NCBI GenBank assembly: GCA_020161295.1
Contig: JAIUOA010000013.1
Coordinates: 1-64,000, forward strand
DNA from: Bacillota bacterium
Lineage (GTDB): Bacteria; Bacillota; Clostridia; Peptostreptococcales; Acidaminobacteraceae
Direction of reading: 5' to 3'
DNA length: 64,000 nt
In this document: positions 25,679 through 44,463 of the stretch, in pieces
Layout of the letters: each line of letters opens with the position of its first letter
Position numbering within the stretch: the stretch's first letter is position 1
The notes under the pieces: generated by a model
The model's database searches: none
What the model saw: only the letters and a program-made list of their open reading frames with translations
What the model was told of the DNA's origin: nothing
Position numbers and translations under genes: made by a program

Positions 25679-26416
25679 TTGGAAGATATAATTTATGGTA
25701 GAAACCCAGTTTTTGAAGCCATCGAATCAGGACGCGAAATCAACAAACTCGTCTTTTTAGAAGGCTCTAAGGATAAAGCGTTACAGAAGATCATCGATGC
25801 GGCTAAACTAAAAAAAATCGTGATGCAGTTCAGCGATCGAAAACACCTCGATAAGTTAGCGGAAGGCGAGAATCATCAAGGTGTTATCGCTTATGTAGCA
25901 CCTTATGCGTATTATGAGGTTGAGGATTTGCTTGCCAAGGCAGCCGCGAAAAACGAACCGCCATTTTTGATTATTTGCGATGAAATAACAGATCCCCATA
26001 ATCTGGGTAGCATCATTAGGACGGCGAACGCTGTAGGGGCGCATGGTGTCATCATCCCTAAAAGGAGGAGTGCTGCCATCAACCAAACGGTGGTCAAAAC
26101 ATCCTGTGGCGCTGTGGAATATGTTCCAGTGGCCCGCGTCACGAACATTACTCAGACGATTGGCTATCTTAAAGAGGCGGGTGTCTGGATCGCCGGAACG
26201 GACATGGGCGCGCCTACTTATTATAAGGCTAATTTGACAGGTGCCATCGCCATCGTCATCGGGAACGAAGGAGACGGGATCAGTCGTCTGGTGAAGGAGT
26301 CCTGTGACTTCATGATTTCCTTGCCGATGTTAGGTGAGGTGAGTTCGCTAAATGCGTCTGTGGCGGCAGGTGTCGTCATGTACGAAATTGTCCGTCAAAG
26401 ACAATTAAAATCTTAA
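25679..26416 (+). CDS. rlmB: 23S rRNA (guanosine-2'-O-)-methyltransferase RlmB/TrmH family
   Basis: SpoU-class SAM-dependent 2'-O-methyltransferase with a deep trefoil knot. Motifs: HNLGSIIRTANAVGAHGVI, IAIVIGNEGDGIS and ISLPMLGEVSSLNASVAAGVVMYE. The most likely start is TTG at 25679, six bases behind GAGGAGG and giving LEDIIYGRNPV, 245 residues. Upstream in-frame starts at 25625 or 25664 overlap thyX and put the binding site inside the gene. The exact rRNA target is by family analogy. Confidence 0.92.
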   Translation: MEDIIYGRNPVFEAIESGREINKLVFLEGSKDKALQKIIDAAKLKKIVMQFSDRKHLDKLAEGENHQGVIAYVAPYAYYEVEDLLAKAAAKNEPPFLIICDEITDPHNLGSIIRTANAVGAHGVIIPKRRSAAINQTVVKTSCGAVEYVPVARVTNITQTIGYLKEAGVWIAGTDMGAPTYYKANLTGAIAIVIGNEGDGISRLVKESCDFMISLPMLGEVSSLNASVAAGVVMYEIVRQRQLKS

Positions 26417-26436
26417 GTGTGCCAAATGTTGTACAC

Positions 26437-26466
26437 TTGACGTTTGAAGTTTTTTTCATATATAAT
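26437..26466 (+). promoter_or_regulatory. Promoter of sigH
   Basis: TTGACG (26437-26442), 18 bases, TATAAT (26461-26466). A dyad AAGTGT/ACACTT (26415-26438) overlaps the -35 region and could be an operator. Confidence 0.7.
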
Positions 26467-26523
26467 GTTTTTATGAATTGGCATCATCAAATACTCTTTA
26501 TCCCGCATAGGAGGACATCTTAG

Positions 26524-27156
26524 ATGGAGTTGGTTGAAGCGATACGAGAAGAACATCTTGATGATGAGTTTATTGTCGAGCAAGCACGAAGCGGTGATCC
26601 AAAGGCACAGGAGTTTTTGATAAAAAAGTATAAGAACTTCGTCAGATCTAAAGCCCGTTCCTATTTTCTCATCGGCGCAGATCGTGAGGATATCGTGCAA
26701 GAGGGTATGATCGGTCTGTTTAAAGCGATGCGAGATTATCAACCAGATAAGGTGACGTCATTTAAGTCCTTTGCAGAGCTGTGTATTAAACGTCAGATTA
26801 TCACAGCGATTAAAACGGCAACACGGCAAAAGCATATCCCGCTCAATTCCTATGTTTCACTTAATAAACCCCTTCACGATGAAGAATCTGACCGAACACT
26901 TTATGATATCATGACCAGTAGTTGCAGGGAACTCAATCCCGAACACCTGATCATCAAGCGTGAAGAGCTTAGTCACATCGAAGAGAAAATGGGTGAAGTG
27001 CTGAGTGATCTGGAATGGAAGGTGCTCAATGCCTATCTTGAAGGCAAGTCTTATCATGAAATTTCCATTGAAATGAACAAACATGTCAAGTCGGTGGATA
27101 ATGCGCTCCAAAGGGTTAAGAAGAAGTTAGAGAAGTATTTGACAAACGTGAATTGA
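26524..27156 (+). CDS. sigH: RNA polymerase sigma factor SigH (sporulation/transition type)
   Basis: Sigma-70-family factor of 210 residues. Region 2 is clear (FLIKKYKNFVRSKARSYFLIGADREDIVQEGMIGLFKAMRDY), as is region 4 with a helix-turn-helix (LSDLEWKVLNAYLEGKSYHEISIEMNKHVKSVDNALQR). It matches the Firmicutes SigH group, which directs early sporulation and post-exponential genes. The position between rlmB and tuf/rpmG/secE is the standard one in Clostridia. AGGAGG is before the ATG. tuf copy 1 follows after 64 bp without a clear promoter. Confidence 0.95.
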   Translation: MELVEAIREEHLDDEFIVEQARSGDPKAQEFLIKKYKNFVRSKARSYFLIGADREDIVQEGMIGLFKAMRDYQPDKVTSFKSFAELCIKRQIITAIKTATRQKHIPLNSYVSLNKPLHDEESDRTLYDIMTSSCRELNPEHLIIKREELSHIEEKMGEVLSDLEWKVLNAYLEGKSYHEISIEMNKHVKSVDNALQRVKKKLEKYLTNVN

Positions 27157-27220
27157 CGGCTGAAACAGCTTAGTTGGGCTGTGAAATAGGTGCATAAAAA
27201 ACAAGGGAGGAATTAAGAAA

Positions 27221-28411
27221 ATGGCAAAGCAAAAGTTTGAAAGAAACAAACCACATTGTAATATCGGTACAATCGGTCACGTAGACCACGGTAAAACGAC
27301 ATTAACAGCAGCAATCACAAAAGTATTATTCGAAAAATACGGCCTCGGCGCAAAAGTAGATTTCGACAACATCGATAAAGCACCAGAAGAAAGAGAAAGA
27401 GGTATCACGATCTCTACAGCACACGTAGAGTACGAGACACCAGCAAGACACTACGCTCACGTAGACTGCCCAGGCCATGCTGACTATGTTAAGAACATGA
27501 TCACAGGTGCAGCACAAATGGACGGATCAATCCTCGTAGTATCAGCAGCAGATGGTCCAATGCCACAAACAAGAGAGCACATCCTTCTTTCTAGACAAGT
27601 AGGCGTACCATATATCGTCGTATTCCTTAACAAGTGTGACATGGTAGATGACGACGAGCTTCTTGAACTCGTAGAGATGGAAGTAAGAGATCTTCTTTCA
27701 CAATACGACTTCCCAGGCGATGATACACCAATCGTAAGAGGATCAGCACTTAGAGCGCTCGAGGGAGATCCAGTATGGGCAGACAAAATCGTTGAGTTAT
27801 TCAACATCATCGATGAGTACATCCCACAACCAGAGAGAGCAACAGACAAGCCATTCCTTATGCCAGTAGAAGACGTATTCTCGATCACAGGTCGTGGAAC
27901 AGTAGCTACAGGAAGAATTGAAAGAGGAATCATCAAGGTTCAAGAAGAAGTAGAAATCGTTGGCCTTGCAGAAGCACCAAGAAAAGTAGTTGTAACAGGC
28001 GTAGAGATGTTCAAGAAGCTTCTTGATGAAGGTCAAGCAGGCGACAACGTAGGCTTACTCCTCCGTGGCGTTCAAAGATCAGAAATCGAAAGAGGCCAAG
28101 TACTTGCTAAGCCAGGAACAATCAAGCCACACACTAAGTTCGAAGCGCAAGTTTACGTACTTACAAAAGAAGAGGGTGGAAGACATACACCATTCTTCAA
28201 AGGCTACAGACCACAGTTCTTCTTCAGAACAACTGACGTAACAGGTTCAATCGAGTTCGCACCAGGCGTTGAAATGTGTATGCCTGGCGATAACATCGAA
28301 ATGAACATCGAACTGATCGCACCAATCGCGGTAGAAGAAGGTTTAAGATTCTCTATCCGTGAAGGTGGTAGAACAGTAGGCGCTGGTTCAGTTATCAAAA
28401 TTACTGCATAA
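27221..28411 (+). CDS. tuf: Elongation factor Tu, copy 1
   Basis: Delivers aminoacyl-tRNA to the ribosome. The 396 residues carry [17 protein letters not shown] and NKCDMVDD. Preceded by GGGAGG. Bases 27221-28410 are identical to the second copy at 43011-44200; even the codons match, and the first difference is the third base of the stop codon (TAA here, TAG there). It follows sigH, and I find no convincing promoter in the 64-bp gap, so it may rely on the sigH promoter or one inside sigH. Confidence 0.99.
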
Positions 28412-28425
28412 GTGAAAATCGGTAG

Positions 28426-28465
28426 TTGTTTTTTACCTAAAAGTGTTGTAGAATACTATAGGTAA
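28426..28465 (+). promoter_or_regulatory. Promoter-like element and dyad behind tuf copy 1
   Basis: TTGTTT (28426-28431), 17 bases, TAGAAT (28449-28454). The same stretch contains an inverted repeat TTACCTA/TAGGTAA (28433-28439 and 28459-28465). A transcript from here would run only about 75 nt to the next terminator. Alternatively the dyad is a weak tuf terminator. Confidence 0.35.
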
Positions 28466-28511
28466 TTTAATTAAGAACAAATGCTATATTTTCTAATGTT
28501 ATTTAGAAGAT

Positions 28512-28539
28512 AAGGACTAGTGGCAACTAGTCCTTATTT
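28512..28539 (+). terminator. Terminator between tuf copy 1 and rpmG
   Basis: 10-bp perfect arms AAGGACTAGT/ACTAGTCCTT with a GGCA loop, followed by ATTTA. It separates sigH-tuf from the rpmG operon. Confidence 0.85.
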
Positions 28540-28601
28540 AACTTGCTTTTTAAGATGAATATTTGTTAATATTATTTCCCGCGTAAACTGACGTGGTTTT
28601 G

Positions 28602-28630
28602 TTGACATGCATTTTGTTTTATGGTAGGTT
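28602..28630 (+). promoter_or_regulatory. Promoter of rpmG-secE-nusG-rplK-rplA
   Basis: TTGACA (28602-28607), 17 bases, TAGGTT (28625-28630), with TGG before the -10 giving an extended -10. Confidence 0.75.
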
Positions 28631-28703
28631 AGATTAGTAATGTTATAGTGGAGTATAGTGTGCATTGCCAGGCACGGACATTATTGGTTTAGGAGGTGTC
28701 GAG

Positions 28704-28853
28704 ATGAGAGTTAACATCACGTTAGCATGTACTGAGTGCAAAAACAGAAATTACAATACGACGAAAAACAAGAAAAACAACCCAGACAGAATTGAAATGA
28801 GCAAATACTGCAAGTTCTGTAAAAAGCACACAGATCACAAAGAAACCAAGTAA
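28704..28853 (+). CDS. rpmG: 50S ribosomal protein L33 (zinc type)
   Basis: 49 residues from the ATG at 28704, behind TTAGGAGGTG. Two CxxC pairs (CTEC and CKFC) show the zinc-binding form. An upstream in-frame start at 28665 would place the ribosome binding site inside the gene. The first gene behind the 28602 promoter. Confidence 0.95.
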
Positions 28854-28888
28854 TAGGTTTCAAATACTATTTGAAGGGGTTGAGATAA

Positions 28889-29095
28889 ATGGCTTCTAGT
28901 AATGTGAAAGAAAACAAGTTTAGTGCAGGCAAGTTTTTCAAAAGTGTTAAAAGTGAAATCAAAAAAGTAACTTGGCCAACTCGTAAAGATGTATGGAATT
29001 ACACATTGGTTGTACTAGCTATGTGTGCTTTTTCCGCAGCGACGATCGGTGTGCTAGATTTAGTTTTTAAATTTCTCTTCAACTTACTTGCTTAG
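28889..29095 (+). CDS. secE: Preprotein translocase subunit SecE
   Basis: 68-residue single-helix SecE that clamps SecY. The conserved amphipathic SEIKKVTWPTRKDVWNYT precedes one transmembrane segment (LVVLAMCAFSAATIGVLDLVF). The standard position between rpmG and nusG. Confidence 0.96.
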   Translation: MASSNVKENKFSAGKFFKSVKSEIKKVTWPTRKDVWNYTLVVLAMCAFSAATIGVLDLVFKFLFNLLA

Positions 29096-29135
29096 AACTG
29101 ATTCAGCAACTATGGGAGGAGGTTTAACCTGAGAC

Positions 29136-29663
29136 ATGGCAGATGCTAGTAACGCAAAATGGTACGTAGTACACACGTATTCCGGTCATGAGAATAAAGT
29201 TAAGGCGAACATCGAAAAAATCGTCGAAAACAGAGGCATGGAAGACGTTATTTTACAAGTTGTCGTGCCGACGGAAACGGTCGTCGAAATCAAAGCTGGT
29301 AAAAGAAAAGACAAATCGAAAAAAATCTTCCCAGGTTATGCATTGGTTAAAATGATTATGACAGACGAATCTTGGTATGTCGTACGTAACACACGAGGAG
29401 TAACAGGGTTTGTCGGACCTGGCTCTAAGCCGATTCCGTTAACTGACGAAGAAGTTGAAAACATGGGTCTTGAGAAGAGATCGGTGCATGTCGATTTTGC
29501 AGTCGGTGATACAATCACTGTAATTTCCGGTCCATTTGAGAACTTTATTGGAACGGTAGAGGAAATCCATATGGAAAGACAATCGATCAAAGCGATGATT
29601 TCGATGTTTGGTCGCGAGACGCCTGTGGAACTCGAGTTCGATCAAGTTAAAAAGAATTTTTAA
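29136..29663 (+). CDS. nusG: Transcription termination/antitermination factor NusG
   Basis: 175 residues with the NGN domain (WYVVHTYSGHENKVKANIE) and a C-terminal KOW domain (VGDTITVISGPFENFIGTVEEI). Binds the RNA polymerase clamp and couples transcription to Rho or ribosomes. It precedes rplK by 14 bp with respect to the chosen rplK start. Confidence 0.97.
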   Translation: MADASNAKWYVVHTYSGHENKVKANIEKIVENRGMEDVILQVVVPTETVVEIKAGKRKDKSKKIFPGYALVKMIMTDESWYVVRNTRGVTGFVGPGSKPIPLTDEEVENMGLEKRSVHVDFAVGDTITVISGPFENFIGTVEEIHMERQSIKAMISMFGRETPVELEFDQVKKNF

Positions 29664-29677
29664 GGAGGTGAATGTCA

Positions 29678-30103
29678 ATGGCAAAAAAAGTAACTGGTAT
29701 GGTAAAATTGCAAATTCCAGCAGGTAAAGCGACGCCAGCACCACCAGTAGGTCCTGCATTGGGTCAACAAGGTGTTAACATCATGCAATTCGTAAAAGAA
29801 TTCAATGCGAAGACTGCTGATCAAGAAGGTATGGTTATTCCTGTAGTAATCACTGTTTACCAAGATAGATCGTATACTTTTATCACTAAAACGCCACCAG
29901 CTGCAAACTTATTAATTAAAGCTGCAGGTATCAAAGGCGGTTCAGGAGAACCAAACAAGAAAAAAGTTGCGACTGTTAAAAGAGCTAAAATCAGAGAAAT
30001 CGCTGAACTCAAAATGCCAGATCTTAACGCAGGTAGCGTAGAAGCTGCGATGAGTATGATCGAAGGTACTGCGAGAAGTATGGGTATCGTTGTTGAAGAT
30101 TAA
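29678..30103 (+). CDS. rplK: 50S ribosomal protein L11
   Basis: 141 residues from the ATG at 29678 ([20 protein letters not shown]...). GGAGG ends nine bases before it; an ATG six bases earlier is only three bases from the binding site and less likely. Part of the GTPase-associated centre of the ribosome. Confidence 0.98.
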
Positions 30104-30135
30104 TTGGCTGATCATTTCGGATCAGTTGTAATGTA

Positions 30136-30160
30136 GTGGGAGGATTATCCGCGTAACCAC
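30136..30160 (+). promoter_or_regulatory. Candidate L1-binding site in the rplA leader
   Basis: GTGG (30136-30139) pairs with CCAC (30157-30160), and GGA/TCC (30042-like core at 30142-30144 and 30148-30150) forms a short second helix across an asymmetric internal loop (GA opposite GCGTAA). The shape, two helices with an unequal loop, resembles the L1 site on 23S rRNA and L1 mRNAs. It sits just before the rplA ribosome binding site. Assigned by resemblance only. Confidence 0.35.
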
Positions 30161-30173
30161 GAAGGAGGAAAAA

Positions 30174-30866
30174 ATGCCAAAAAGAGGTAAAGCTTATCAA
30201 GAAGCTTCAAAGCTTGTTGAAAGAAACAAGCTGTACGAGCTCGATGAAGCGATTAAATTAGTGAAGCAAACTGCGAAAGCAAAGTTTGACGAAACGGTTG
30301 AATTACACATCAAACTCGGTGTTGACGGTAGACATGCTGATCAACAAGTTAGAGGTGCTATCGTATTACCACACGGAACAGGTAAAACTAAAAAGGTGTT
30401 GGTAATTGCAAAAGGCGAAAAAGCAAACGAAGCTGAAAAAGCGGGTGCTGATTTCGTTGGCGCTGAAGACATCATCAACAAGATCCAAGCTGAAAACTGG
30501 TTTGATTACGATGTTATCGTAGCGACACCAGACATGATGGGTCAACTCGGTCGTTTAGGTAGAGTTTTAGGTCCTAAGGGCTTAATGCCAAACCCTAAAT
30601 CAGGAACAGTTACTTTCGATGTTGAGAGAGCTGTTAATGAAATCAAAGCTGGTAAAGTCGAGTACAGATTGGACAAAACGAATATCGTTCACGTTTCAAT
30701 CGGTAAAGTATCTTTCGATGAAACTAAGTTGACTGAGAACTTGAACGCACTTGTTGAAGCGGTTGTTAAGGCGAAGCCTGCTGCTGCTAAAGGTACTTAC
30801 CTCAGAAGTGTTACAATTACTAGCACGATGGGCCCTGGTATCAAAATCAACGCTGCGAAATTATAA
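30174..30866 (+). CDS. rplA: 50S ribosomal protein L1
   Basis: 230 residues, normal L1 length, with [11 protein letters not shown] at the start and the conserved [21 protein letters not shown] segment. Preceded by GAAGGAGG. The stop codon is immediately followed by the -35 box of the rplJ promoter. Confidence 0.98.
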
Positions 30867-30895
30867 TTGACAACGCGTCAATTCTCTGGTAGAAT
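30867..30895 (+). promoter_or_regulatory. Promoter of rplJ-rplL
   Basis: TTGACA (30867-30872), 17 bases, TAGAAT (30890-30895), with TGG before the -10. It begins at the base after the rplA stop codon. Confidence 0.88.
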
Positions 30896-30921
30896 TGCTT
30901 TGTCTTAAAAAAGTAAATAAA

Positions 30922-31029
30922 CCGTAGACAGTAGGTGCTAACGCTTAATTTCCTACCGAGGTAAGGATATATAGTTTATCTAGATAAATTATGACCTCTC
31001 TTGTCTACGGAAGAGAGGTTTTATTTTTA
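30922..31029 (+). ncRNA. L10 leader (autoregulatory mRNA structure with terminator)
   Basis: CCGTAGACA (30922-30930) pairs with TGTCTACGG (31002-31010), enclosing GTAGG...CCTAC (30931 on) and CGAGGT/GACCTC elements typical of the L10 leader family. The 3' strand overlaps a terminator hairpin ACCTCTCTT/AAGAGAGGT (30994-31002 and 31011-31019) followed by TTTTATTTTTA. The two folds exclude each other. In the established model, L10(L12) binding to the leader favours termination before rplJ. Confidence 0.85.
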
Positions 31030-31046
31030 AATAAGGAGGTGGACAA

Positions 31047-31544
31047 ATGTCAAATAATTTAGAAGCGAAAAAAGTTGCTGTAGAAGAGATTAAAGAAAAG
31101 TTCGCGACCGCAAAATCAGCTGTTTTAGTTGACTATAGAGGCTTAACTGTTGAAGAAGTGACTGAACTTAGAAGTAAGTTTAGAAAAGCGGGTGTTGATT
31201 ACAAAGTTTATAAAAACAACCTTGTAAAGATCGCGATTAAAGACACGCCATTCGAAGCTCTTTCTCAAGATTTGACGGGTCCAAACGCTATCGCATTCGG
31301 TATCGAAGATGCTGTTATACCTGCAAAAATCATTAAAGATTTTGCTAAGGGACACAAAAACTTAGAATTAAAAGCGGGCGTTGTTGAAGGTTCTTATTGC
31401 AACCTTGAACAAATTATCGCAATCGCAGATCTTCCATCAAAAGAAGTGCTTATCGGCAGATTCCTTGGAAGTATCAAAGCTCCAGTTTCAAACTTTGCTT
31501 ATTTCTTATCGAATCTTATCAAAGAAAGAGAAGCAAACGCTTAA
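31047..31544 (+). CDS. rplJ: 50S ribosomal protein L10
   Basis: 165 residues, the stalk base protein that carries L7/L12 dimers on its C-terminal helix (ending FAYFLSNLIKEREANA). It lies behind an L10 leader with attenuator, so it likely controls its own synthesis. AAGGAGG is before the ATG. Confidence 0.97.
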   Translation: MSNNLEAKKVAVEEIKEKFATAKSAVLVDYRGLTVEEVTELRSKFRKAGVDYKVYKNNLVKIAIKDTPFEALSQDLTGPNAIAFGIEDAVIPAKIIKDFAKGHKNLELKAGVVEGSYCNLEQIIAIADLPSKEVLIGRFLGSIKAPVSNFAYFLSNLIKEREANA

Positions 31545-31588
31545 TTGACGTAAAAATATGAAATGAAAATTACCCGGAGGTGTTTAAA

Positions 31589-31954
31589 ATGACTAAAGAA
31601 CAAATTATTGAAGCTATTAAAGGCATGAGCATTTTAGAAATTAAAGAATTAGTTGAAGCTTGTGAAGCAGAGTTTGGTGTTTCTGCATCTGCTCCTGTAA
31701 TGGTTGGCGCTGTAGCTGCTACTGCTGAAGCTGTAGAAGAGCAAACTGAATTCGATGTTATCTTAGCTAATGCTGGCGCTAAGAAAATCGGCGTAATCAA
31801 AGTGGTTAGAGAGCTTACTGGTCTAGGACTCAAAGAAGCGAAAGATCTCGTAGATGGCGCTCCTCAAACATTAAAGCAAGGTATCTCTAAAGAAGAAGCT
31901 GAGAAAATCAAAGCGGCTTTAGAAGAAGCTGGCGCAGCAATCGAATTGAAATAG
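31589..31954 (+). CDS. rplL: 50S ribosomal protein L7/L12
   Basis: 121 residues with the N-terminal dimerisation region, an alanine-rich hinge and the factor-binding C-terminal domain ([35 protein letters not shown]). The ATG at 31589 is nine bases behind GGAGG; a GTG at 31580 overlaps that site. A terminator follows. Confidence 0.98.
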
Positions 31955-31962
31955 TTTCAAAC

Positions 31963-31993
31963 AATAGCCACCAATCACATGGTGGCTATTTTG
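31963..31993 (+). terminator. Terminator of rplJ-rplL
   Basis: 11-bp arms AATAGCCACCA/TGGTGGCTATT followed by TTG. The T run is short, so read-through into rpoB is possible. Confidence 0.8.
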
Positions 31994-32047
31994 ACTCATT
32001 ATTTCTAGTGCTTTATAACTTAAGATGCTACAAAAAATTGAAGACTT

Positions 32048-32156
32048 CATTCTAAACAAACTTATAATTGGTGGTTGACACGTCTCGACATGTGTGATAC
32101 TATTTTATAATGCTATAAGTATGTTTAGAATGGAGTTTTCTGCGTTTCTAAACAAA
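32048..32156 (+). repeat. Three copies of TTCTAAACA around the rpoB promoter
   Basis: CATTCTAAACA at 32048-32058 is perfectly inverted as TGTTTAGAATG at 32122-32132, and TTCTAAACAAA recurs at 32146-32156. The first copy is upstream of the promoter and the other two form a 9-bp hairpin in the leader. Function unknown. Confidence 0.8.
32075..32103 (+). promoter_or_regulatory. Promoter of rpoB-rpoC
   Basis: TTGACA (32075-32080), 17 bases, TACTAT (32098-32103), with TGA before the -10 (extended -10). The predicted leader is about 120 nt. Confidence 0.85.
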
Positions 32157-32171
32157 AGATGGGTATGTTAG

Positions 32172-32189
32172 AAAAGGATTTGTCCTTTT
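32172..32189 (+). other. Second leader hairpin of rpoB
   Basis: 7-bp arms AAAAGGA/TCCTTTT with a TTTG loop lie between the TTCTAAACA hairpin and the rpoB start. It has no clean T run, so it is not a standard terminator. Confidence 0.5.
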
Positions 32190-32229
32190 ATAATACAACG
32201 ACTTTTATTACACAAGGGGTGAAAATTTA

Positions 32230-35200
32230 ATGCCACAACCTGTAATGCTCGGAAAAACGAAAAGAATGAGTTTCGCCAGAATTAATGAGTTACTTGAGAA
32301 ACCGAATTTGATTGAGATCCAAAGAAAATCATATGAGTGGTTTCTCGAAGAAGGCTTAAAAGAAGCTTTCAAAGACATCTCGCCGATTGAAGACTACACT
32401 GGCAATTTAAGTTTGGAGTTTATCGATTATGAACTCGATGAAGATCCAAAGTATGATGTGGAAGAGTGTAAAGAGCGCGATGTGAATTATGCAGTACCAT
32501 TAAGGGTACAAGTGAGATTCATTAACAAGGAAACGAGCGAAATCAAAGAGCAAAAAGTATTCATGGGTGATTTTCCATTAATGACAGATAAGGGAACTTT
32601 TATCATTAATGGTGCTGAAAGGGTTATTGTTAGCCAGTTAGTAAGATCGCCAGGTCCTTATTACGATGGAAAAATCGATAAGGTGGGTACTAAATTATTT
32701 TCAAGTACGATTATTCCAAATAGAGGCGCATGGCTCGAGTACGAAACAGACTCGAACGATGTTGTTTCCGTTCGTATCGACAGAACGAGAAAGCTTCCAG
32801 CAACTACTTTAATCAGAGCGTTAGGTCACCATTCTAACCATGAGATCCTCTCTATGTTTGGTGAAGATGAGAAGCTTATCAAAACACTTGATAAAGATAG
32901 TACGGTTAATCAAGAGGAAGGTCTAATTGAAATTTATAAAAAGCTGAGACCAGGTGAACCCCCAACTGTTGAAAGTGCGCGTAATTTAATAAATTCACTA
33001 TTTTTTGACGAGAAGCGTTATGACCTTGCTAAGGTTGGACGTTATAAGTTCAATAAAAAGCTTGGCGTGTCCAATCGAATTGAAGAGCGTGTTGCAGCTG
33101 AGAACATCATCCATCCATTAACAGGCGAAATCCTTGTTGAGAAGGATGGTAAAATTTCGATTGATATGGCAGCCATCATAGAAAATGCTGGCGTTAAGCA
33201 AGTAGATGTCTATGGAGATGACGACAAAATCGCGCGTGTCATCGGTAACCATTTCGTAGATATCCACGAGTATATCCAGTCCGATTTGTTAAAGGTAAAA
33301 GAAAAAGTTTACTATCCGGTACTTAGAGAGATTTTAGATACTTGTGACACCGTGGCTGAACAGTTGGCTGCTGTAGAAGCGAGAATGTCTGAGCTCGTAC
33401 CAAGACATATTATTCCAGCCGATATTTTAGCATCCTTCAGCTATATCCTCAATTTAAATTGGGGTGTTGGTAACGTGGATGATATCGACCATTTGGGTAA
33501 CCGTAGAATTCGTTCGGTTGGTGAACTCCTTCAGAACCAATTCAGAATTGGACTTTCTAGAATGGAACGTGTCGTTCGCGAGCGTATGACGATCCAAGAC
33601 ATGGAAGCGATTACACCTCAGGCGCTGATCAATATCAAACCTGTGGTTTCTGCCATTAAAGAATTCTTTGGTAGTTCACAGTTGTCCCAGTTCATGGACC
33701 AAACAAATCCGCTTGCTGAACTTACTCATAAAAGAAGACTTTCTGCACTTGGACCTGGTGGTCTCTCAAGAGAGAGAGCGGGCTTCGAAGTGCGTGACGT
33801 TCACCATTCCCACTATGGTAGAATGTGTCCGATTGAAACGCCAGAGGGACCAAACATCGGTCTTATCGGTTCACTCAGTACATTCGCACGCATTAATGAA
33901 TATGGTTTTATAGAGTCTCCTTATAGAAAAATCAACAAAAAAAATAATCATATCACAGATGAGATCATCTATATCACGGCTGACGTTGAAGAGAAGTATA
34001 CAGTTGCGCCGGCAAATGAGCCCGTAACGGAAGATGGATTCTTCGTAAATGATAGAATCGTCGCGAGACGTCGTTCTGATATTAAAGAGTTTCCTGCTAG
34101 TGAAATTGATCTCGTAGAAGTTTCTGCACTCCAAATGGTTTCTGTTGCAACGGCGATGATTCCATTCCTTGAAAATGACGACGCCAACCGTGCCCTCATG
34201 GGTTCGAACATGCAACGTCAGGCTGTACCACTCGTTAGAGCGGAAGCGCCGATCATAGGTACAGGTATCGAGCATATAGCTGCGAAGGATTCTGGATCGG
34301 TTGTAAAATCACCTGTGGATGGCGTAATTGAATACGTTTCTGCAGATGAAATCGTCGTCCGTGGAAATGCAGATAAGAAGAAATACCGTTATAAATTACT
34401 CAAGTTCAAGCGTTCCAACCAAGGAACCTGTATCAATCAAAAGCCGCTCGTAAAAAAAGGTCAACAAGTCATTGCTGATGAAATCATCGCAGATGGTCCT
34501 TCAACCGATAATGGTGAAATCGCATTAGGAACAAACCTTTTGATCGGCTTCATGACTTGGGAAGGATACAACTATGAGGATGCGATTCTCATCAGTGAAG
34601 AACTTGTTATGGAAGACAAACTCAGCTCTATTCATATTGAAGAATATGAATCGGAAGCTAGAGATACAAAGTTAGGCCCTGAAGAAATCACACGCGATAT
34701 TCCAAATGTCGGCGAAGATGCACTTAAAAATCTCGATGCAGAGGGAATCGTTCGAATCGGCGCTGAAGTTAATTCAGGCGATATCCTTGTTGGTAAAGTA
34801 ACGCCTAAAGGTGAAACTGAGTTAACGGCTGAAGAGCGTCTGCTTCGCGCCATTTTCGGCGAAAAAGCGCGTGAAGTGCGCGATACTTCTTTAAGAGTAC
34901 CGCACGGTGAATCGGGAATTATTGTCGACGTCAAAAAGTTCGAAAGAGAAAATGGCGACGAACTCTCCCCAGGTGTAAACAAGTTGATCCGCGTTTACAT
35001 CGCTAAGAAAAGAAAAATCAGCATCGGCGATAAAATGGCGGGACGTCACGGTAATAAGGGCGTTATTTCCAGAATTTCTCCGATTGAAGACATGCCATTC
35101 TTAGAAGACGGCACACCGCTTCAAATCGTTCTTAACCCACTTGGCGTACCTTCGCGTATGAACATCGGTCAGGTACTTGAAGTCCACTTGGGACTCGCTG

Positions 35201-35922
35201 CTAAGAAAAATGGTTGGAAAGTAGCTACACCTGTATTTGACGGTGCAAGCGAGGTTCAAATCATGGATATTCTTGCAAAAGCCGGTTATCCAGCTGACGG
35301 AAGATTACGTATTCGAGATGGCCGCACAGGCGAAGCATTTGATAACAATGTTACCGTAGGGTACATGTATATGTTAAAGCTTCACCACCTTGTAGATGAT
35401 AAGATCCACGCAAGAAGCACCGGTCCTTACTCATTGGTTACACAACAGCCACTGGGCGGTAAAGCACAGTTTGGTGGACAGCGTTTTGGTGAGATGGAGG
35501 TTTGGGCACTTGAGGCGTACGGCGCTGCGCATACGCTACAAGAAATCCTGACTGTTAAATCTGACGACGTCGTCGGTAGGGTTAAAGCTTATGAAGCGAT
35601 TGTCAAAGGGGAGAATATCCCTGAACCTGGTATTCCAGAGTCCTTCAAAGTTCTTATTAAAGAATTACAGGCACTTGCGCTTGATGTAAAAGTACTTCGT
35701 GATGATGCTGGTGAAATTGAAATCGAACTCGTCGATGATGACGATGATGGTTTGGATTATAACACGGCGCTCAGAGAGCAAAAGATTACAAATGATGTCG
35801 AAAAAGGCGCATTTATTGATGATTTGGCTGATGATGAAGATATCAAGGAATCTGAAGAGGAAGAAGAACCTTTTGAGTCCGATGAAGACTTTTACGCTGA
35901 TGACGAGGAATATGACGAGTAA
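32230..35922 (+). CDS. rpoB: DNA-directed RNA polymerase beta subunit
   Basis: 1230 residues forming one half of the active cleft. Conserved segments include [32 protein letters not shown] (rifampicin region) and [13 protein letters not shown]. The last ~55 residues form a very acidic tail, rich in Asp and Glu and ending DDEEYDE. Such tails occur in Firmicutes RpoB and vary in length. AAGGGGTG is before the ATG. rpoC follows after 32 bp. Confidence 0.99.
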
Positions 35923-35954
35923 CTAACTTTTATTAGAGAAGGGAGAGGTAGCCC

Positions 35955-38900
35955 TTGATCGAATTCAATAATTTTGATTCCATTAGAATAGGTTTAGCTT
36001 CACCAAACAAGATTAGATCTTGGTCAAAAGGAGAAGTTAAGAAACCTGAGACGATCAATTATAGAACATTGAAACCAGAGAAAGAAGGTCTTTTCTGTGA
36101 AAAGATCTTCGGACCCACAAAAGACTGGGAATGTCATTGTGGTAAATACAAAAAGGTAAGATATAAAGGGGTCGTTTGTGACCGCTGTGGCGTCGAAGTT
36201 ACCAAATCTAAGGTAAGACGCGAGAGAATGGGCCATATCGAGCTCGCTGCACCTGTATCTCATATTTGGTATTTTAAAGGCATTCCTTCAAAAATGGGAA
36301 TCTTGCTCGACTTGTCGCCACGTTCTTTAGAAAAGGTACTTTACTTTGCCTCTTATATTGTCATCGAACCAGGTGAAACAAGCCTTGAGTACAAGCAACT
36401 CTTAACTGAGAGTGAATACTCACAATATAGAGAGAAGTATGGCAATACGTTTAGAGCGATGATGGGCGCTGAAGCAGTAAAGGAGATTTTACAACACGTT
36501 GATCTCGATGCGCTTGCCACTGAACTGAAGGCACAGCTTAAAGACAGCTCGGGCCAAAGAAAGATCCGAATTGTTAGAAGATTGGAAGTCGTTGAAGCGT
36601 TTAGACAGTCAGGTAATGATCCTGAATGGATGATTTTAGACGTCGTTCCAGTTATTCCACCAGATTTGAGACCGATGGTCCAATTAGATGGTGGACGTTT
36701 TGCCACAGCCGATTTAAATGATTTATATAGAAGAGTAATCAACAGAAATAACCGTTTGAAGCGCTTACTTGAACTGGGTGCTCCTGATATCATCGTTAGA
36801 AATGAAAAGCGTATGCTCCAAGAAGCAGTAGACGCGTTAATTGACAACGGTAGAAGAGGCCGTCCAGTAACTGGGCCTGGTAACCGTCCACTTAAATCGT
36901 TATCAGATCTCTTAAAAGGTAAACAAGGCCGTTTCAGACAGAACTTACTTGGTAAGCGTGTTGACTATTCAGGCCGTTCAGTAATCGTCGTTGGTCCGGA
37001 ACTCAAGTTCTACCAGTGTGGATTACCTAAGAAGATGGCACTTGAACTCTTTAAGCCATTCGTCATGAAGCGTTTGGTCAATGACGGTTTCGTACACAAC
37101 ATTAAGAGTGCGAAGCGTATGGTTGAGCGTGTCAAACCAGAAGTTTGGAATATCGTAGAGGAAGTCATCGCAGAGCATCCAGTACTTCTTAACCGTGCAC
37201 CTACACTTCATAGACTGGGTATTCAAGCGTTTGAGCCAGTACTTGTTGAAGGTAAAGCGATTCGTCTCCATCCACTTGTTTGTACGGCATACAACGCCGA
37301 CTTCGACGGTGACCAGATGGCGGTTCACGTACCATTATCTGTAGAAGCACAGGCAGAAGCTAGATTCTTAATGCTTTCTGTAAATAATATCCTTGCACCA
37401 AAAGATGGTCGTCCGATTACGACACCTACACAGGATATGGTTCTCGGCGCTTATTACTTGACGTATCAAAGTGAAGAGCAACCTGAAGTTAAAAAAGTCT
37501 TTAAAGACTTCGAAGAGCTCAATCTTGCGTACTATAACGGCGCCATCAGTCTTCATACCCGTGTAATCCTCAAAAAATATTTGCCTGATGAACAGAGATA
37601 TATCAGAGTAGAAAGTACGGTCGGTCGTTTCATCTTTAATGAAAAGATTCCGCAAAACCTTGGTTTTGTTGATCGTGAAAAAGATAAGTACTCACTCGAA
37701 ATCGATTTCCTCTGTAAAAAGAAGGATTTGGAAGAAATCATCGCAAAATGTTTTAATGAGTATGGCAACACCATTACTGCAGAGCTCTTAGACCACATGA
37801 AAGATATAGGTTTTAGATACTCGACTAGAGGCGCAATCACAGTATCCGTATCGGATATGGTTATTCCAGAAGCAAAGAAGGAACTGATTGCCACTGCTAG
37901 AAATACCGTTGATCAATATCAAAAAGCATTCAGAAGAGGTCTTATCTCTGAAGATGAGCGTTATGAGAAAATTATCCAAACGTGGACGAAGACAACTGAA
38001 GACGTAACGGATGCGCTCATGAAAAACCTTTCAAACCTCAACAATATCAAAATCATGGCGGACTCTGGTGCCCGTGGTTCTAAAAACCAAATTCGTCAGC
38101 TTGCAGGTATGCGTGGTCTCATGGCCAATGCCCTTGGTAAGACGGTTGAGATTCCAATCATTTCGAACTTCCGTGAAGGTCTGTCGGTACTCGAGTACTT
38201 CATCTCTACCACAGGAGCACGTAAAGGTCTCGCCGATACAGCCCTTAGAACAGCCGACTCTGGTTATTTGACTAGAAGACTTGTAGACGTCAGTCAAGAA
38301 GTCATCGTAAGAGAAATCGACTGCCAAACGAATGCAGGTATCGAAGTTGTTGAATTTAGAGAAGGTAACGAACTGATTGAACCATTAGCGGAGAGAATTT
38401 TAGGTCGCTATCCAGTTGAAGATTTGATTAATCCTGAAACAGGAGATGTGATTTGTTCGACGCACCAAATGATTAGCGAAAAAATTGCGGATAAAATCAT
38501 TCAAGCTGGGTATAAGTCAGTTAAAATACGTTCTGTTTTGACTTGTGACACACAATACGGCGTTTGTGCGAAGTGCTACGGACTTAACCTTGCGACTGGT
38601 AAACCAGTACACGTAGGTGAAGCAGTCGGCATTATCGCTGCTCAATCGATCGGTGAACCGGGTACACAGCTTACGATGAGAACGTTCCATACGGGCGGTG
38701 TTGCTGGTGGCGACATCACGCAAGGTCTCCCCCGTGTTGAGGAACTTTTCGAAGCCAGAAAACCTAAAGGTCTCGCTGTTATCGCTGAGGTAAATGGGGT
38801 AGTATCCTTTAAAGAAACAAAGAAGAAAAAAGAAGTGGTGATCACTAACGAAGAAACCGGTGAGCAACATACTTCTCTCATCGTCTTTGGTGCACGCTTA

Positions 38901-39479
38901 AAGGTAAAAGACGGCGAGCGTGTCCTTAAAGGTCAGTCCATTACGGAAGGCTCTATCAACCCACATGACTTACTACGCGTCGTTGGCGTTAACGGTGTGC
39001 GTGAATATATCATCAAAGAAGTTCAAAAGGTTTATCGTCTCCAAGGCGTTGATATCAATGATAAACATATTGAGATCATCGTGAAGCAGATGTTGTCGAA
39101 GATTAAGATTGATGAATCTGGAGATTCCTTATTATTACCAGGTAGCGTCGTAAGCCTTAAAGAGTTTAACCGCATCAACGATGCTTTATTAGCTGAAGGC
39201 GGTGAAGCTGCAGTAGGTACGCGTTCACTTCTGGGAATTACGAAAGCGTCGTTAGCCACTGAATCGTTCTTGTCTGCTGCATCATTCCAGGAGACGACAC
39301 GCGTGTTAACAGAGGCGGCCATCAATGGTAAGGAAGATCGATTGTTAGGTCTTAAGGAAAATGTCATCATCGGAAAACTCATCCCAGCTGGTACAGGGAT
39401 GCGCTATTACAAGGACATGACCGTGCGAACAGCTGATGATTTCGAGTTTTCAGACATTGAATCCATTAATAGTATTTAA
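35955..39479 (+). CDS. rpoC: DNA-directed RNA polymerase beta' subunit
   Basis: 1174 residues with the catalytic [12 protein letters not shown] motif, the N-terminal zinc finger (CHCGKY...CDRCG) and a second zinc cluster ([13 protein letters not shown]). The start is TTG ([17 protein letters not shown]) behind GAGAGG. No large lineage insertion is seen. The stop is 11 bp before the -35 box of the next gene's promoter. Confidence 0.99.
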
Positions 39480-39490
39480 CATAAAATTTA

Positions 39491-39519
39491 TTGACAGTAA
39501 AATTCGATGGTGTTAAAAT
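39491..39519 (+). promoter_or_regulatory. Promoter of the L7Ae-like gene and str operon
   Basis: TTGACA (39491-39496), 17 bases, TAAAAT (39514-39519), with TGT before the -10. Confidence 0.85.
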
Positions 39520-39558
39520 GATGAAGTGCATATTGGCGACTTCAAGGAGGGACACAGT

Positions 39559-39807
39559 ATGCAATTATGCGACCTCGCAAAGCATTCAAAAATCAATGTT
39601 GGCGTAAAACAGTCTACTAAGGCGATTGCAACAGACAGAGCTTCGGTTTTGTTTGTCGCGAACGATGCCGATCAAAACATCATTAAAAAAGTGATTGATT
39701 TGGCAGTTGAGAGATCCATTGAGATCGTTTACGTCGACACGATGAAAGAACTCGGGAGAGCATGTAATATTGACGTTGGTGCTGCGACAGCGGTTATTGA
39801 AAAATAG
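39559..39807 (+). CDS. L7Ae-family ribosomal/kink-turn-binding protein
   Basis: 82-residue L7Ae/L30e-like protein (YbxF type), known in Firmicutes to bind kink-turn RNA. It carries TKAIATDRASVLFVANDADQ and ends IDVGAATAVIEK. The ATG at 39559 is eight bases behind AAGGAGGG; a longer frame from 39526 would cross the binding site. It lies between rpoC and rpsL, the usual location. Confidence 0.9.
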   Translation: MQLCDLAKHSKINVGVKQSTKAIATDRASVLFVANDADQNIIKKVIDLAVERSIEIVYVDTMKELGRACNIDVGAATAVIEK

Positions 39808-39838
39808 ATAAATAAAAGGAAGGAGGTGCTGAAAAGGA

Positions 39839-40255
39839 ATGCCTACTATAAATCAATTAGTGAGAAAAGGAAGACTTGACATTGAAGAAAAATCAACTTC
39901 TCCTGCGTTACAAAGAAGTTTAAATACTTTAAAGAGAAAACAAGTCAAAATGAGCTCGCCACAAAAAAGAGGTGTTTGTACAAGTGTTAAGACTGTAACG
40001 CCTAAGAAGCCAAACTCGGCGCTTAGAAAAGTTGCAAGGGTTAGATTGACAAACGGTTTTGAGGTTACAGCTTATATCCCAGGTGTTGGCCACAACTTAC
40101 AGGAGCACAGCGTTGTTCTTATTAGAGGTGGAAGGGTTAAAGACTTACCAGGTTGTAGATATCACATCGTTAGAGGAGTACTTGATTCATCTGGTGTAAA
40201 CAACAGAATGCAAGCAAGATCTAAATACGGTGCTAAGAGACCAAAGAAAAAATAG
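39839..40255 (+). CDS. rpsL: 30S ribosomal protein S12
   Basis: 138 residues starting [12 protein letters not shown], with the decoding-centre segments [18 protein letters not shown] and [25 protein letters not shown]. The lysine in PKKPNS is where streptomycin-resistance changes arise in other bacteria; the wild-type-like lysine is present. Confidence 0.99.
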
Positions 40256-44236: not shown

Positions 44237-44268
44237 TAACCCCTTGATAATCTCAAGGGGTTATTATA
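44237..44268 (+). terminator. Terminator of the str operon
   Basis: 11-bp arms TAACCCCTTGA/TCAAGGGGTTA followed by TTATAT. The -35 box of the S10 promoter lies inside its left arm and loop. Confidence 0.8.
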
Positions 44269-44272
44269 TAAT
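44244..44272 (+). promoter_or_regulatory. S10 operon promoter embedded in the tuf terminator
   Basis: TTGATA (44244-44249), 17 bases, TATAAT (44267-44272). The two elements overlap the terminator hairpin and its tail. It gives a leader of about 185 nt before rpsJ. Confidence 0.7.
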
Positions 44273-44278
44273 ATTGTG

Positions 44279-44463
44279 GTGCACTAATGCGATGACGCGA
44301 AAAGTTACTTAACTGTGAGAGAATTTTCGCCGAGAATTGTTCATACTTGATATGAGCGACGAGTTTTTTTCTGCTCACCTAACTGCGAAACACCCGGCGC
44401 GGTGGACGATAAAACTCGATTGCATGATCACGGTAAACATGCGATAAAAAAGGAGGTTTAGCA
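44279..44463 (+). promoter_or_regulatory. Structured 5' leader of the S10 operon
   Basis: The leader contains four possible helices. They are GCGAAAA/TTTTCGC (44297-44303, 44324-44330), GTTCATA/TATGAGC (44339-44345, 44351-44357), CGAGTTTT/AAAACTCG (44360-44367, 44411-44418; enclosing CACC/GGTG at 44376-44379 and 44401-44404 and GCG/CGC) and GCATG/CATGC (44422-44426, 44438-44442). The last lies just before AAGGAGG. No reading frame stands out. An autoregulatory role is inferred from length and position. Confidence 0.5.

Follow-up and report, generated by a model that had tools for sequence, protein, structure and literature searches.

A candidate RNA insulator enclosing the rpoB promoter at the rplL-rpoB junction of the Fusibacter clade

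The ompA and ermC leaders carry stabilising stem-loops at their 5' ends, and IS10 and IS50 are protected against read-through by an upstream arm that pairs with the start of their own transcript. In Escherichia coli, the spacer between rplL and rpoB is described as an RNase III substrate (PMC2777011) that also contains an attenuator (PMC4670729). Even in this organism, the control of RNA polymerase output relative to the ribosomal proteins encoded upstream is incompletely understood (PMC4670729). Here we describe the same junction in clostridia of the Fusibacter clade, where an inverted repeat encloses the rpoB promoter and probably keeps the ribosomal genes and the RNA polymerase gene apart.

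The window (the whole stretch of 64,000 nucleotides that was analysed) has the gene order tuf-nusG-rplK-rplA-rplJ-rplL-rpoB-rpoC, in which rplJ, rplL and rpoB were named by NCBIfam, and tuf, nusG, rplK, rplA and rpoC were read from their translations. The gap between rplL (31589..31954; ribosomal protein L7/L12, TIGR00855, E-value 2.1e-46) and rpoB (32230..35922; TIGR02013) covers positions 31955-32229, and both genes, as well as all elements of the gap described below, are on the forward strand. At the end of rplL there is a weak, terminator-like hairpin (31964..31989), formed by ATAGCCACCA..TGGTGGCTAT and a short TTT run, which in 11/11 genomes of the clade has the form GCCACC..GGTGGC and is followed by just 3-5 T. 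The preliminary description of this DNA had reported an 11-bp perfect inverted repeat around the rpoB promoter. This repeat is exact (32048-32058/32122-32132, with a loop of 63 nt), and it is the core of a longer, 27-nt inverted repeat that is 89% complementary, composed of arm 1 (32040..32066), expected only in read-through RNA, and its partner arm 2 (32114..32140). The rpoB promoter, TTGACA-N17-TACTAT with a TG before the -10 box (32075..32103; -35 at 32075, -10 at 32098), sits in the loop between the two arms, and its -35 is invariant in 11/11 clade genomes. Inverted repeats with exact arms of at least 11 bp (span of at most 150, loop of at least 10) occur three times in the 64-kb window, this one included, and 7 of 500 shuffles of 31955-32229 reached an arm of 11. 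The duplex that the leader can form with the DNA preceding the -35 was matched in 0/200 shuffles, and the read-through RNA from 32030 to 32150 folds at -39.6 kcal/mol (z -6.7), a value equalled by none of 200 shuffles.

From its spacing to the promoter, the transcript start can be placed at about 32110, which gives a putative rpoB leader of 32110..32229. The third copy of the repeat (32146-32156) is a direct repeat of copy 1 (32050-32060), TTCTAAACAAA, and had been proposed to pair with copy 2 as a leader hairpin; the pairing holds, limited to 9 bp (32122-32130/32146-32154). Arm 2 has, in this way, two potential partners, arm 1 in read-through RNA and, via 32122-32130, arm 3 (32146..32154) in RNA from the rpoB promoter itself, where arm 3 is the 3' strand of the predicted leader hairpin P1 (32122-32154). 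P1 is closed by the helix P0 (32110-32114/32162-32166; weak in the full-leader ensemble of the window genome, at 0.8 expected pairs), the two together forming a predicted structure at 32110..32166, which is followed by hairpin C (32167..32194), predicted in both states, and by the Shine-Dalgarno sequence AAGGGG (32214..32219). A degenerate second copy of arm 2 (32163-32184, 73% like 32119-32140) overlaps hairpin C and leaves the predicted folds unaffected. A reading of the region as a mobile or repeated element was dropped, since 31980-32260 has a single match within its own genome. No Rfam family matched at gathering score over 32040-32229, and the sole match in 26000-40000 was an ordinary L10_leader (RF00557, 84.2 bits) before rplJ, at 30904-31034.

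Of the 41 genomes of the GTDB family that were searched, 36 have rplL, and the full layout is present in 11 genomes with five genus labels (G000-G003, G016, G018-G021, G024 and G034), which lie far apart on the rpoB nucleotide tree. Genomes with no rplL match (G017, G022 and G023), or with rplL but without rpoB behind it in the available DNA (G035 and G037), were not counted. In 68 loci, the pairing was scored as a duplex of 50 nt of leader with a stretch of at most 65 nt preceding the -35; nine further loci, in which no promoter was found, were left unscored. Conservation in close relatives had been named as a check on the repeat, and the enclosing repeat is kept, with no loss seen, in 11/11 Fusibacter-clade genomes with a readable rplL-rpoB junction (duplex z of -5.2 to -8.1). 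Among the 57 other loci, from 56 genomes of the order because L020 and L076 belong to one genome (G032), one reaches a z of -4.1 (L080), its sister L081 has -0.2, and all others have values above -2.3. The exact leader-start pattern occurs at 23 places in the genome contigs, 12 of them elsewhere and 11 before rpoB, the latter all in Fusibacter, Acidaminobacter or relatives. The first bases of the leader are also kept in more distant relatives, although in most of these the fold does not clearly surpass that of shuffled sequences. In two uncultured Clostridia (L044 and L058), TATAATGCTATAAGTATG is found before a phosphoglycerate kinase-like gene (read from sequence) and not before rpoB.

On the rpoB tree, the core of arm 1 has 0.89 changes per site. 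The DNA immediately upstream has 3.5, about four times the rate of arm 1, and the promoter spacer has 2.7; the values are 0.32 for the core of arm 2 and 2.82 for arm 3. The arm 1:arm 2 helix has 94.4% standard pairs (285 pair cells), compared with 34-53% after sliding one arm by 1-3 columns.

It had also been suggested that copies 1 and 3 compete for copy 2, and the predicted folds of 11/11 clade genomes agree with this. Ensemble folding of the read-through RNA gives 21.7-25.8 expected pairs between arms 1 and 2, 0.0-1.4 between arms 2 and 3, and no P0, whereas RNA from the rpoB promoter, taken from the inferred start, gives 8.0-12.9 expected pairs between arms 2 and 3. In the first 60-odd bases of this second RNA, P0 closes P1 in 11/11 minimum-energy structures, and from 0 to 35 of 500 shuffles of the 3' part, depending on the genome, give a leader hairpin as good. 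In full-leader ensembles, P0 is weak in G000, G019 and G034.

The explanation that we prefer, and to which we give about an even chance, is that the element between rplL and rpoB is an RNA insulator, i.e., a double strand that exists only in read-through RNA, is cut by RNase III, and has the rpoB promoter inside it. Judging from the sequence, read-through past the rplL hairpin is plausible, since the terminator scores of the rplL end are low, ranging from -10 to 21 in the clade, compared with 24-45 in seven and -2 to 8 in three of 10 other genomes of the family. Low scores without arm 1 are found in both Acidaminobacter genomes (L025 and L029) and in L022, and, as the 11 genomes are one clade, the association between a weak rplL terminator and arm 1 counts as a single event. 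Polymerases leaking past the weak hairpin would transcribe arm 1, the rpoB promoter region and then arm 2, which arm 1 would take at once into a stem whose near-perfect part has about 19 pairs and which, when extended, reaches about 26. In 11/11 genomes, the read-through RNA is predicted to contain, between rplL and rpoB, a stem roughly two turns long. RNase III would cut this arm 1:arm 2 stem, parting the rplJL RNA from the rpoBC RNA, and the cut read-through rpoB RNA would keep a processed 5' end without the leader hairpin. In contrast, polymerases starting in the loop, at the rpoB promoter, would never make arm 1, and their RNA would open with the P0/P1 hairpin and offer no RNase III substrate, such that the intact leader would be carried mainly by transcripts from this promoter. 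Processing by RNase III is the most likely fate of the stem because the enzyme is present (the gene was found, with TIGR02191 over the cut-off, in 4/4 genomes of the genus), the stem is long, and in E. coli this junction is known to be cut by RNase III and to have an attenuator. A promoter inside a hairpin that only read-through can form would be a simple rule for separating RNA polymerase output from that of the ribosomal proteins upstream. More tentatively, rpoB mRNA might carry a mark of its origin, with polymerase synthesis uncoupled from ribosomal-protein transcription by the origin of the transcript and with no protein regulator. This mark could then possibly be, and we put it forward with similar reserve, the 5' hairpin on transcripts from the rpoB promoter and the double-stranded cut site on those that read through.

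The nearest rival to the insulator is that arm 1:arm 2 acts as a second, long-loop intrinsic terminator of read-through transcription, which transcripts begun in the loop, having no arm 1, would pass. The A-rich 5' arm and the 4-6 T found right behind GGAG in 11/11 genomes speak for a terminator, but the stem has few G-C pairs, a 47-nt loop and a T run lying partly within it, and the score of arm 1:arm 2 is negative in 10/11 genomes (although the score is ill suited to long loops); on balance, we consider such a terminator unlikely. Arm 1 is also A/T-rich and located at about -70 to -44, so that it could be a UP-like promoter element, its complementarity to the leader being the relic of an inverted duplication. 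However, the usual UP region ends short of about -70, and here the pairing reaches about that position, with ACT(C/T), which is not an A/T tract, being kept. The coordinated changes at the pair 32052:32128 and the absence of such pairing in 55/56 other genomes scored further argue against a UP-like element, which we find improbable.

The near-fixed spacing between arm 1 and the -35 in the clade speaks for an element acting at the DNA level, in which a regulator bound to the three copies would block the promoter or draw it into a loop. Nevertheless, the pair TGTTTAGAA-N10..20-TTCTAAACA occurs once in the genome, at rpoB, the pairing runs well beyond the 9-mer, and copy 3 drifts, at the 2.82 changes per site given above, while arms 1 and 2 do not. 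The changes of arm 1 in 32041-32058, which are few events, include three A-to-G facing U and two C/U facing G, with no U-to-C facing A, and the pair 32052:32128, which takes the forms C-G, U-A and U-G, has changed three times on either side. The covariation score of the arm 1:arm 2 helix was reached by 1/500 shuffles; changes on both sides are found in just 2/26 arm pairs, a count reached by 265/500 shuffles. Arm 2 is nearly invariant, hence the covariation rests on few events, and about 5 of the roughly 13 changes of arm 1 in 32041-32058 break a pair. For these reasons, the distinction between RNA and DNA constraint leans less on covariation, and is based mainly on how long the pairing is, on its matching the leader and on the lack of further sites. 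A DNA-level element is, in our view, very unlikely, and the looped operator pair contemplated in the preliminary description is disfavoured by the single occurrence of the paired motif and by the position that changes together in both arms.

Although the predicted folds are exclusive in 11/11 genomes, it is equally hard to credit that they serve as a sensor through which the origin of the RNA governs the translation or attenuation of rpoB, as the Shine-Dalgarno sequence is unpaired to 0.25-0.44 in read-through versus 0.32-0.39 in own-promoter RNA (difference of at most 0.09), hairpin C has 6.4-11.5 and 6.5-11.4 expected pairs, respectively (at most 1.5 of difference per genome), and arm 3:arm 4 pairing amounts to at most 2.1 expected pairs. 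Thus, of the switch by transcript origin that had been envisaged, the exclusive predicted folds stand, and an effect on a downstream attenuator or on how rpoB is translated is not supported. A four-arm attenuator, in which 1:2 frees arm 3 and 3:4 breaks hairpin C, was promising in G021 (arm 3 CTTTTTAAAC, arm 4 GTTTAAAAAG), and was ruled out by the low 3:4 pairing (at most 2.1 expected pairs) and a hardly altered hairpin C; a translation switch was ruled out by the near-equal Shine-Dalgarno exposure. With both features near-equal in the two states, the predicted difference between the two RNAs lies in their 5' region, a long double strand in one and a compact start hairpin in the other, and the modelled folds suggest a role in RNA processing or decay, not one in translation or attenuation.

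The rpoB upstream regions have a further common feature. The rpoB start was located in 74 loci, a set from which L039 and L134, where no start was located, are absent; promoters (score of at least 10) were chosen without looking downstream, and were obtained for 67 of the 74. In 64/67 of these rpoB promoters of the order, a TGC lies exactly 8-10 nt downstream of the -10 hexamer (32111-32113 in the window), and by this sequence criterion the predicted rpoB transcript start is nearly fixed across the order. At the class level, a promoter was found in 27 of 29 loci, and TGC is at the same place in 19/27; the TGC rule may be more general. In the window, the promoters of rpoB and of the str and S10 operons have TGC there (str and S10 at 39491-39535 and 44244-44290, the operon names being read from ORFs), 16 other promoter-like sites lack it, and in the str promoters of relatives the TG is mostly kept and the C is not. 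A search for 16S genes, with a view to rRNA promoters, gave no match in 4 genomes. The near-fixed TGC accounts for some of the leader-start conservation (32110-32113), but not for that of the arms, and we found no explanation for the near-fixed, initially transcribed TGC itself. In other families of the order, terminator-like hairpins with T runs were seen by eye directly before the rpoB ribosome site (L083, L085, L133 and L132), and these look as if rpoB were attenuated there.

Searches of open-licence papers returned no account of an rpoB hairpin of this type. An own-promoter rpoB RNA would open with a hairpin near its 5' end, as do the RNAs with the stabilising stem-loops of ompA or ermC; the likeness is one of position, and, unlike in these leaders, the rpoB hairpin is lost in the read-through RNA. 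The protection of IS10/IS50, and of IS200 (PMC3196728), against read-through also relies on an upstream arm that is present only in transcripts from outside and pairs with the start of the element's own transcript. There, folding conceals the ribosome site or halts transcription coming from outside, whereas the rpoB Shine-Dalgarno sequence is unaffected, and the sequence is single copy and not a mobile repeat. The E. coli rplL-rpoB site shares with the clade the junction itself, a terminator-like rplL hairpin, which in the clade is putatively leaky, and, after it, a double-stranded stem in the read-through RNA, which in the clade is predicted (PMC2777011, PMC4670729). The likeness is one of layout, cleavage in the clade being presumed, and, unlike in E. 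coli, the clade has the rpoB promoter enclosed by the stem, which is in competition with a leader hairpin. The proposed insulator resembles the E. coli site in kind, with a promoter inside it as the difference.
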